Assembly (NCBI RefSeq): GCF_001544515.1
Contig: NZ_FCOL02000004.1
Span: 186,001-250,000 of the forward strand
Direction of reading: 5' to 3'
DNA from: Caballeronia terrestris
GTDB lineage: Bacteria > Pseudomonadota > Gammaproteobacteria > Burkholderiales > Burkholderiaceae
Length of the DNA stretch: 64,000 nucleotides
Part shown: piece by piece, positions 57,182 through 59,668 of the stretch
Layout: each line of letters opens with the position of its first letter
How positions within the stretch are numbered: position 1 is the first letter of the stretch
Translations under genes and position numbers: made by a program
Notes under the pieces: generated by a model
Database searches by the model: none
Seen by the model: the letters and a program-made list of their open reading frames with translations, nothing else
Told to the model about the DNA's origin: nothing

Positions 57182-58213
57182 ATGGCTTTCAACGTAACGC
57201 TCCGGCAAAGCGGCCGGCAGTTTCAAGTGGAACCCGACGAAGCGGTGCTTATCGCCGCCCTCCGCCAGGGCATCGGCCTGCCGTACGGCTGCAAGAACGG
57301 CGCGTGCGGTTCGTGCAAGGGCACCATCGTGAGCGGCGAGGTCGAACAGGCGCCGCACTCGTCGTCGGCGTTGTCGAACGATGAAAAGACGCGCGGCATG
57401 GCGCTTTTCTGCTGCGCGACCGCGCAAACCGATCTCGAAATCGACGTGCGCGAAGTCGCGGGCGTCGGCGACGTGCAGGTGAAGAAGCTGCCCTGCCGCG
57501 TCAACGCGCTCGAACGCAAGGCCGCCGACGTCGTCGAGCTGAAGCTGCAGTTGCCCGCCAACGAGCGGCTGCAATACCTCGCCGGCCAGTACATCGAGTT
57601 CATCCTGAAGGACGGCAAGCGTCGCAGCTATTCGATGGCGAGCCCGCCGCATCACGAAGGCCCGCTCGAGTTGCACATCCGTCACATGCCCGGCGGCACG
57701 TTCACCGACCACGTCTTCGGCGCGATGAAAGAGCGCGACATCCTGCGCTTCGAGGGCCCGCTCGGCACGTTCTTCCTGCGCGACGACTCCGAGAAGCCGA
57801 TCGTGCTGCTCGCGTCCGGCACGGGTTTCGCGCCGATCAAGGCGATCATCGAGCACGCGGTGTTCAAAAACCTGAACCGCCAGATGACGCTCTACTGGGG
57901 TGGCCGTCGCAAGCAGGACCTCTACATGATGGATCTCGCCGAGCAATGGGCGAAGGACGTGCCGAACTTCAAGTTCGTGCCGGTCCTCTCCGAACCCGAC
58001 GCCACCGATGCCTGGACCGGCCGCACGGGCTTCGTTCATCGGGCTGTCATCGAGGATCTGCCGGACTTGAGCGCGTACCAGGTGTACGCGTGCGGCGCGC
58101 CGGTGATGGTCGAATCGGCGCAGCGCGATTTCACGAGTCATCATCGGCTGCCGGAGGAAGAGTTCTACGCGGATTCCTTCACGAGCGCCGCCGATCTCGC
58201 GCATCCGGTCTGA
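57182..58213 (+). CDS. [2Fe-2S] ferredoxin-type NAD(P)H reductase
   Basis: A 343-residue one-component reductase. The N-terminal plant-type ferredoxin has C37, C42, C45 (CKNGACGSC) and C77. The FAD domain has RRSYSMASPP, and the NAD domain GTGFAPIKAIIEHAV and YACGAPVMVESA. It is of the CDP-6-deoxy-glucoseen reductase/phenol hydroxylase reductase type. Its electron acceptor is unknown and no oxygenase is adjacent. Confidence 0.93.
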   Translation: MAFNVTLRQSGRQFQVEPDEAVLIAALRQGIGLPYGCKNGACGSCKGTIVSGEVEQAPHSSSALSNDEKTRGMALFCCATAQTDLEIDVREVAGVGDVQVKKLPCRVNALERKAADVVELKLQLPANERLQYLAGQYIEFILKDGKRRSYSMASPPHHEGPLELHIRHMPGGTFTDHVFGAMKERDILRFEGPLGTFFLRDDSEKPIVLLASGTGFAPIKAIIEHAVFKNLNRQMTLYWGGRRKQDLYMMDLAEQWAKDVPNFKFVPVLSEPDATDAWTGRTGFVHRAVIEDLPDLSAYQVYACGAPVMVESAQRDFTSHHRLPEEEFYADSFTSAADLAHPV

Positions 58214-58223
58214 TCGCAGTAGA

Positions 58224-58250
58224 AACGCGCGGACAGAAAATCCGCGCGTT
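58224..58250 (+). terminator. Hairpin after the ferredoxin reductase gene
   Basis: A 10-bp stem AACGCGCGGA/TCCGCGCGTT with a 7-base A-rich loop, 10 bases past the stop. No T run follows, so termination is uncertain. Confidence 0.5.
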
Positions 58251-58290
58251 AAGGTTTACACGCACAAACGTCGTATCGTATCCTTCGCGA

Positions 58291-58344
58291 ATGATCATCG
58301 AAATCCAGACCAGCCTCCGACGTCGCCGCTCGCCGCTTCCCTAG
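58291..58344 (+). CDS. Possible leader peptide with four consecutive Arg codons
   Basis: 17 codons, MIIEIQTSLRRRRSPLP and TAG. The arginine codons CGA CGT CGC CGC occupy 58318-58329. No Shine-Dalgarno sequence precedes the ATG; if the promoter above is right, the transcript would begin at or next to the ATG and translation would be leaderless. It could be a chance frame; its value lies in its place before argD and its terminator. Confidence 0.4.
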   Translation: MIIEIQTSLRRRRSPLP

Positions 58345-58402
58345 GGATGCCGCTGGCTCGTCACGGATTCGCGCTCATGTTCTGTTCGATGCGCACGAAA
58401 AG

Positions 58403-58432
58403 AAGCCACGGGACCCCGTGGCTTTTGTTTTT
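58403..58432 (+). terminator. Terminator 50 bases before argD
   Basis: A 9-bp stem AAGCCACGG/CCGTGGCTT with a GACC loop and a TTTGTTTTTT tail. It lies inside the leader rather than after a gene, 190 bases past the reductase stop. Confidence 0.85.
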
Positions 58433-58483
58433 TCCGACGCCGTTTTTTCAACCATCCTTGTCGCTTTCGTGGAGCCCGCTGTC

Positions 58484-59668
58484 ATGAATTTCAATGAGTA
58501 CCCCGTCGAATCGCTGATGTTCATCACGAACCGCCCTGAAATCGTGTTCACGCACGGCAAGGGCTCATGGCTCTACGACAACACCGGCAAGCGCTATCTG
58601 GACTTCATCCAGGGCTGGGCCGTGAACTCGCTCGGCCACTGCAACGACGGCATGATCGAGGCGATGGACAGGCAGGCGCGCACGCTCATCAACCCGTCGC
58701 CCGCGTTTTACAACGCGCCGATGGCGCAGCTCGCCGGTTTGCTCACGCAGCACAGCGTCTTCGACAAGGTGTTCTTCGCGAACAGCGGCGCCGAGGCGAA
58801 CGAAGGCGCGATCAAACTCTCACGCAAGTGGGGCAAGAAGTTCAAGGGCGGCGCTTACGAGATCATCACGTTCGATCACAGCTTCCACGGCCGCACGCTC
58901 GCGACGATGTCCGCGAGCGGCAAGGCCGGCTGGGACACGATCTACGCGCCGCAAGTGCCGGGCTTCCCGAAGGCCGAGCTGAACGACATCGCGTCGGTCG
59001 AACGGCTGATCACCGATAAGACCGTCGGCGTGATGCTCGAGCCGATTCAGGGCGAAGGCGGCGTGATCCCCGCGACGCGCGAATTCATGCAGCAACTGCG
59101 CGCGTTGACGAAAAAGCACAACCTGCTTTTGATCGTCGATGAAGTGCAAAGCGGCTGTGGCCGCGCGGGGACGCTGTTCGCGTACGAGCTCTCGGGCGTC
59201 GAGCCGGACATCATGACGCTCGGCAAGGGCATCGGCGGCGGCGTGCCGCTGGCGGCGCTGCTGGCGAAGGCCGAAATAGCGTGCTTCGAGCCGGGCGACC
59301 AGGGCGGCACCTACAACGGCAATCCGCTGATGACGGCGGTCGGCTATTCGGTGATCTCGCAAATGACGGCGCCCGGTTTTCTCGAAGGCGTGCGCGAGCG
59401 CGGCGAGTATCTGAAGTCGCACCTGCTTCAGCTTTCGGAAGAACGCGGCTTCAAGGGTGAGCGCGGCGAGGGCCTCTTGCGCGCGCTGCTGCTCGATTCG
59501 GACAACGGCGCTCAGATCGTCGAGAAAGCGCGTCTGATGGGGCCCGACGGCCTGCTGCTGAACGCGGCGCGTCCGAACCTGCTGCGCTTCATGCCCGCGC
59601 TGAACGTAACGAAGGACGAGATCGACCAGATGATGGCGATGCTGCGCACCGTGCTGGATTCGCTGTGA
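58484..59668 (+). CDS. argD: Acetylornithine aminotransferase
   Basis: A 394-residue class III PLP aminotransferase converting N-acetylglutamate semialdehyde to N-acetylornithine in arginine synthesis; relatives also act on succinylornithine or diaminopimelate intermediates. It has LDFIQGWAVNSLGHCN, FFANSGAEANEGAIKLSRKWG, LLIVDEVQSGCGRAG, the PLP lysine in IMTLGKGIGGGVPLAALL and GTYNGNPL. ATG 58484 has GGAG 9 bases upstream. The N-terminus differs from E. coli ArgD, so the exact substrate should be treated as likely, not proven. Confidence 0.87.
   Translation: MNFNEYPVESLMFITNRPEIVFTHGKGSWLYDNTGKRYLDFIQGWAVNSLGHCNDGMIEAMDRQARTLINPSPAFYNAPMAQLAGLLTQHSVFDKVFFANSGAEANEGAIKLSRKWGKKFKGGAYEIITFDHSFHGRTLATMSASGKAGWDTIYAPQVPGFPKAELNDIASVERLITDKTVGVMLEPIQGEGGVIPATREFMQQLRALTKKHNLLLIVDEVQSGCGRAGTLFAYELSGVEPDIMTLGKGIGGGVPLAALLAKAEIACFEPGDQGGTYNGNPLMTAVGYSVISQMTAPGFLEGVRERGEYLKSHLLQLSEERGFKGERGEGLLRALLLDSDNGAQIVEKARLMGPDGLLLNAARPNLLRFMPALNVTKDEIDQMMAMLRTVLDSL

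Follow-up and report, generated by a model that had tools for sequence, protein, structure and literature searches.

In the window, which here denotes the whole 64,000-nucleotide stretch of DNA analysed, argD is preceded by a compact leader comprising a sigma-70-like promoter, a short open reading frame (ORF) with a run of arginine codons, and an intrinsic terminator (Table 1). The promoter is the sole promoter-like site between positions 57500 and 58700 (mean of 0.1 in shuffled sequences), and its -35 and -10 hexamers are both present in most rows of the leader alignment. The leader ORF ends 56 nt before the terminator, whose T run is in turn separated from the argD start codon by 50 nt. A preliminary description of this DNA had proposed an arginine-codon attenuator, and the promoter with its 18-nt spacer, the 17-codon frame with its four Arg codons, the strong terminator upstream of argD and the segment GCCGCTGGCT at 58349-58358 were all recovered as it had placed them.

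As judged from protein-family models, the downstream gene is a biosynthetic acetylornithine transaminase; assignment to the catabolic astC was rejected, the astC model scoring 342.8 bits against a cut-off of 609.95. A GNAT acetyltransferase ORF comes next and shares a 4-base overlap with argD (59665-59668), so an attenuator at this position may control both genes. In other genera, a GNAT match was not seen in many argD loci within the sequence piece examined.

Table 1 Features of the argD leader in the window (pairing regions are numbered in the order 1 to 4; region 4 is the 3' arm of the terminator).
Feature	Positions	Strand	Details
Sigma-70-like promoter	58255..58284	+	-35 TTTACA 58255-58260, 18-nt spacer, -10 TATCCT 58279-58284
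Rfam RF02884 BcKCsr7 match	58278..58428	+	82.9 bits, gathering cut-off 59
Leader peptide ORF MIIEIQTSLRRRRSPLP	58291..58344	+	ATG 58291, 17 codons, stop TAG 58342-58344
Four consecutive Arg codons (putative sensor)	58318..58329	+	CGA CGT CGC CGC
Region 1, inside the Arg codons	58319..58328	+	GACG 58319-58322 and GCCG 58325-58328; predicted pairing with region 2
Region 2 GCCGCTGGCTCGTC	58349..58362	+	TGGC and CGTC towards region 1; CCG and TGGCT (within 58350-58358) towards region 3
Region 3 AAGCCACGGG	58403..58412	+	Terminator 5' arm; partner of region 2 in the predicted antiterminator
Intrinsic terminator (3:4)	58401..58433	+	Stem 58401-58411/58416-58426, then T run to about 58433
argD, acetylornithine transaminase (putative regulated gene)	58484..59668	+	NF002985 791.2 bits, cut-off 568

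Conservation and gene context in the Burkholderiaceae

The leader coincides with a catalogued RNA, RF02884 ("Burkholderia sRNA 7"), which aligned over its full model (1-157) with an E value of 1.2e-16 and a covariance-model score above the gathering threshold. This was the only match in the source genome, and a search of plasmids for the leader gave no match. Across the family, RF02884 was matched in 183 of 299 genomes, representing 9 of 25 genera, and five genomes (G020, G137, G164, G203 and G275) held two matches each. In all 131 of the RF02884 loci that were fetched, an argD homologue lay directly downstream on the same strand.

RF02884 loci and loci from argD protein searches together gave 231 argD upstream regions, of which 222 combined a -10 pattern with a terminator and with an ATG lying 4-8 nt beyond the -10; this layout was what the search rule demanded, and the presence of a -10 box there is therefore not independent evidence. 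As these loci overlap (one genome may recur), the counts used below are of 175 distinct leaders and 119 distinct ORFs. The nine loci lacking the layout are of several kinds. L066 does hold a leader (MIRILNTLRRCRSPLP) that the terminator rule missed, L074 has masked bases at its start, L047 is a decayed leader copy and L151 is a 38% identical homologue, while no such leader lies upstream of argD in L133, L134 and L150, and none occurs in the stretch examined of L195 and L215, both titled Candidatus Burkholderia. In one further locus, L178, the layout is present and the Arg run absent. Decayed or missing Arg leaders thus occur in a few genomes (L047, L178, L195 and L215), some of them titled symbionts: either the start or the Arg run has been lost, or the leader is absent from the stretch examined, as if leader control were dispensable in these genomes.

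The leader reading frame and its arginine codons

The motif CGACGY follows the ATG in 173 of the 175 distinct leaders (the other two lack it), and reading frame was no requirement of the leader search. Six distances separate the ATG from this motif (18, 21, 24, 27, 30 and 33 nt), and in 173/173 leaders the distance is a multiple of three. An Arg run is present in 118 distinct ORFs; it comprises four codons in 102, three in 11 and two in five, and is therefore at least three codons long in 113. CGA opens the run in 117 of these 118 ORFs, although across seven ORFs of the window it accounts for 6 of 138 Arg codons; a slow codon at this place may set the timing. Where the first three positions of the run deviate from their commonest codon, the substitute is another Arg codon in 28 cases and a non-Arg codon in five; at position 4 the corresponding numbers are seven and 16. 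In addition, a nearest-neighbour dN/dS-like ratio, computed on 86 distinct sequences of the commonest layout, was 0.575 in frame versus 0.867 and 1.378 in the other frames, and for codons 8-15 alone 0.692 versus 0.866 and 1.443; these ratios point the right way but are modest. In one genus (L142-L148) two or three consecutive Arg residues (RR or RRR) are left of the run, with further Arg codons scattered behind them; for L142, the predicted folds still pair region 1 with region 2.

Arg codons come easily in GC-rich sequence and the Arg run sits in a predicted stem, and hence the ORF could have arisen by coincidence between a promoter and a terminator that are themselves conserved, in sequence kept for RNA structure alone. 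Against this stands the strict spacing described above, with six different ATG-to-run distances all preserving frame, and we consider such a coincidence scarcely credible. On these sequence grounds, the leader frame is a real reading frame.

Diverged leaders in other Burkholderiales families

Order-wide searches with argD at E <= 1e-150 found the gene in 10 of 80 and 33 of 250 genomes, and the order-level loci derive from those matches alone, the second search giving loci for 30 of its 33 matches. Several of the argD genes found in this way are preceded by diverged Arg leaders, for example MNMIRTLLRRRSPLPLPGKPCA, MNPMTSRRRPDVRLSRQGKTRARR, MNTKFNDALRRRITTSGMRSCGRRQP and MHCTNSLRRRDPAREARARR, each with an ATG 6-7 nt after a -10 box and a terminator before argD. 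These leaders follow the same plan in sequence that no longer resembles RF02884. A strict rule, written after the leaders had been seen and requiring a promoter, an ATG 5-8 nt after the -10 box and an Arg-rich short frame, was satisfied by 9 of 29 argD upstream regions (labels f3, f8 and f24), compared with 0 of 29 reverse strands and 1 of 2,900 dinucleotide shuffles. Even with a rule composed afterwards, this excess in distant loci also argues against a chance frame. Looser inspection by eye added two more leaders of f8 and one each of f15, f35 and f39, for a total of 14 of 29; in the remaining 15 order-level loci no leader was seen by rule or eye, and L246 is doubtful.

The diverged leaders also bear on whether the peptide itself could be the sensor. 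Nascent peptides can stall the ribosome by binding an effector, as in SpeFL, and an Arg-rich leader peptide might similarly bind arginine or ornithine, stalling being set by the ligand and not by a shortage of Arg-tRNA. The partial conservation of the peptide within the Burkholderiaceae (LRRRRSPLP), which extends beyond the codons, would be expected of such a sensor; however, residues outside the Arg run differ widely among families, and induction through an effector-dependent stall would fit a gene for catabolism or export, whereas argD here is biosynthetic. A nascent-peptide sensor is accordingly judged very improbable, and the codons of the Arg run are the more plausible sensor.

Start of the transcript and identity with BcKCsr7

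The spacing between the -10 box and the ATG is narrowly distributed, at 6 nt in 54, 7 nt in 118 and 8 nt in three of the 175 distinct leaders, where the rule allowed 4-8 nt. In the window leader this spacing is 6 nt, which places the ATG at the expected transcription start. An ATG 6-8 nt after the -10 box would stand at about +1, leaving no room for a Shine-Dalgarno sequence, and the leader mRNA is probably leaderless, in which case transcription would begin at the ATG itself. The preliminary description had counted the missing Shine-Dalgarno sequence as a weakness; it is indeed missing, as fits a probably leaderless start. Other leaderless transcripts have been described in Burkholderia cenocepacia J2315 (PMC4603805).

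A start at the ATG would also account for the size of a published RNA. Burkholderia-type leaders measure 140-149 nt from the ATG to the end of the terminator stem, which by length alone agrees within a few nucleotides with a 147-nt transcript of J2315 (chromosome 1, 2967641-2967787), known as RIT34, nc5U30, Bc_KC_sr7 and IG1_2967543 (PMC10987360, Table 2); Bc_KC_sr7/RIT34 was equated with RF02884 by name. The transcript is reported to be conserved and expressed in biofilms, with lower levels during Caenorhabditis elegans infection and higher levels with organic peroxide (PMC10987360). In the part of its main text covered here, that review makes no mention of argD. The nc5U label seems to come from a 2017 study that distinguished sRNAs from 82 short 5'UTRs generated by attenuation or processing, and whose main text, as far as it was covered, names neither argD nor nc5U30 (PMC5688073). 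Likewise, no argD attenuator is named in the covered portions of the main texts of Sass 2015, Sass 2017, Pita 2023 and Naville 2010.

Its place in RF02884 and in Burkholderia sRNA lists (RIT34/Bc_KC_sr7) would favour an independent trans-acting sRNA that is merely situated in front of argD. Such an RNA would have no evident call for a same-strand argD downstream in 131 of 131 loci or for an Arg run in frame with an ATG, and the diverged versions preserve the Arg frame and not the RNA sequence; the alias nc5U30 also seems to place the transcript, in the part of that study covered, among short 5'UTRs rather than sRNAs (PMC5688073). We therefore regard a purely trans-acting sRNA as unlikely, and BcKCsr7 is best read as the terminated argD leader. 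The two roles are compatible, as a terminated leader could also act in trans, which is what has been reported for rnTrpL of Sinorhizobium meliloti.

Alternative pairings of the leader RNA

Pairings were counted in 60 leaders obtained by looser clustering and energies were computed for 21 clustered leaders. The terminator was the one structure that RNAalifold recovered from the whole alignment. Its helix is 95.7% paired among the 60 leaders, and the pairs of its core stem hold in 59-60 of them; one pair has changed from A-U to G-C in four leaders, and the top pair accounts for 24 doubly changed cells.

For region 1, the preliminary description had proposed that CCAGC (58310-58314) pairs with GCTGG. 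The CCAGC is present, but it is not conserved: among 174 distinct leaders it precedes the Arg run in five, which are close relatives of Caballeronia type, and this version of the 1:2 pairing was rejected. Folds of the free RNA instead pair the GACG and GCCG of the Arg codons with CGUC (58359-58362) and UGGC (58354-58357), respectively, and place the UAG of the window leader in the loop of the predicted 1:2 hairpin. The 1:2 pairing is thus likely to be that of Arg codons 58319-58328 with 58354-58362. Together, the 1:2 and 3:4 pairings are kept in 87.8% of cells among the 60 leaders, with 45 doubly changed cells where shuffles gave 20.1 and slid controls no more than 14, although the named structures came from folds of the same sequences, which favours them. 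Of the doubly changed cells, 28 belong to the terminator and 16 to the upper 1:2 stem (12 of the latter at one pair), and the number of pairs with any double change (seven) is similar to that in the slid controls (eight and seven). The Arg-codon stem (helices 1-3) is paired in 79-86% of cells yet contains one doubly changed cell, and so shows almost no covariation. In the 21 lineages, 40-84% of the 12 Arg-codon bases are predicted to pair downstream, and the real upstream part leaves the terminator 5' arm freer than the shuffled mean in 21 of 21, this competition being singly significant (p<0.05) in five.

The antiterminator pairing of regions 2 and 3, which the preliminary description had offered as the alternative structure, was retained in 83.2% of cells in the 60 leaders, but covariation was absent (no doubly changed cells); the terminator 5' arm is nearly invariant among the leaders. 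Modelled ribosome positions nevertheless shift the predicted balance towards it. Across the 21 lineages, sequestration of the terminator arm had a median of -1.2 kcal/mol in the free RNA and -3.2 kcal/mol with a ribosome on the stop codon, versus -5.2 to -6.5 kcal/mol with a ribosome on the first three Arg codons (-6.5 on the second). The second-Arg state exceeded the free state by >1 kcal/mol in 21 of 21 lineages and the stop state in 17 of 21. Compared with shuffled sequence, the antiterminator reached p<0.05 in 8 of 21 lineages (the window leader gave p 0.31), with a combined Fisher p of 3e-7 over lineages that are not independent. When complete leaders were folded with a stalled ribosome, the minimum free energy structure was the antiterminator in 4 of 14, the window leader not among them. 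The antiterminator would therefore have to win by timing, regions 2 and 3 pairing before the polymerase has transcribed region 4, as occurs in trp attenuation. On paper, the 1:2, 2:3 and 3:4 pairings are predicted to be mutually exclusive. Many leaders can form a further variable hairpin in 58363-58402 of the window and its homologues (for example GCGTAAC..GTTACGC in Burkholderia-type leaders), which would sit inside the antiterminator loop.

A proposed arginine attenuator in bacteria without detected ArgR

In proteobacteria, arg genes are classically controlled by the ArgR repressor, as the preliminary description had pointed out, but this seems not to apply here: ArgR (PF01316) was matched in none of 120 Burkholderiaceae genomes, the source genome among them, compared with 9 of 14 control genomes. 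A similar leader was not found upstream of argG, argF or an argC-like match in the source genome (the argC-like match falls below its family cut-off and has one internal stop), so leader control seems confined to argD among the genes examined.

A short ORF with a conserved in-frame run of Arg codons and an intrinsic terminator between that ORF and argD, two of the elements expected of a leader-peptide attenuator, are both present. The preliminary description had held that an attenuator would be refuted if relatives kept neither the short ORF nor the alternative structure; the frame, Arg run, terminator and argD context are kept across the Burkholderiaceae, as is the 2:3 pairing in most cells, though without covariation, and the attenuator reading withstood this comparison. 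The element is thus most likely an attenuator of argD transcription that works through the ribosome and senses arginyl-tRNA by its Arg codons, as originally suggested. The parts, their conservation and, on paper, the mutual exclusion of the pairings are what the sequences show, and the start at the ATG, ribosome stalling, read-through and the arginine response itself are inferred.

In the proposed mechanism, transcription would begin at the leader ATG or no more than about 1-2 nt away from it, giving a leaderless mRNA on which a ribosome would load. With ample Arg-tRNA, the ribosome would pass CGA CGT CGC CGC and reach the UAG, the terminator (58401-58433) would form, and an RNA of about 140 nt (BcKCsr7) would be released. 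When Arg-tRNA is scarce, the ribosome would stall on the Arg codons and block their pairing with 58354-58362; this segment, now free, would pair with the terminator 5' arm, allowing transcription to proceed into argD.

Comparison with known systems and implications

The enterobacterial trp, his, leu, thr and ilv attenuators use exclusive 1:2, 2:3 and 3:4 pairings, with sensor codons in region 1 and an intrinsic terminator before the biosynthetic gene. The argD leader resembles them in its predicted pairing plan, its sensor codons and the placement of its terminator, and differs in its proposed specificity for Arg and its probably leaderless start without a Shine-Dalgarno sequence. An upstream frame is also linked to arginine control in the fungal CPA1/arg-2 arginine attenuator peptide, where arginine induces a nascent-peptide stall that acts on translation; unlike the proposed argD attenuator, that system is eukaryotic and translational and relies on the nascent peptide, and homology between the two is not expected. 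No arginine-sensing bacterial leader-peptide attenuator was found in open-licence literature listings.

A closer parallel is the trpLE(G) system of S. meliloti (PMC7298713). Its leader peptide, peTrpL, similarly belongs to an amino-acid biosynthesis gene; the attenuator RNA, rnTrpL, starts at the trpL ATG and is possibly a leaderless mRNA, as is probable for the argD leader; the released attenuator RNA is seen as an sRNA; and the operon is without transcription repression. The two differ in that the S. meliloti system has Trp codons, trpE(G) and a place in the Rhizobiales, compared with Arg codons, argD and the Burkholderiales here. RF02884, in turn, is the same element as the argD leader (82.9 bits); it is filed as an sRNA, and the leader peptide, the link to argD and attenuation are not named in the covered parts of the literature examined.

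More broadly, an ancient leaderless Arg-tRNA attenuator might stand in for ArgR in controlling argD across much of the Burkholderiales, with BcKCsr7/RIT34 as the released leader and maybe a trans-acting signal of Arg status or a tiny leaderless mRNA; we put this forward tentatively, as a possibility with rather less than even chances. The attenuator itself would bring arginine into the set of amino acids to which leader-peptide attenuators of bacteria respond, would give the catalogued sRNA BcKCsr7 a concrete role in cis, and would supply arginine-responsive control in bacteria in which ArgR was not found. Changes in the level of BcKCsr7 RNA under stress may be a readout of the arginine state of the cell rather than of a programme devoted to this sRNA.
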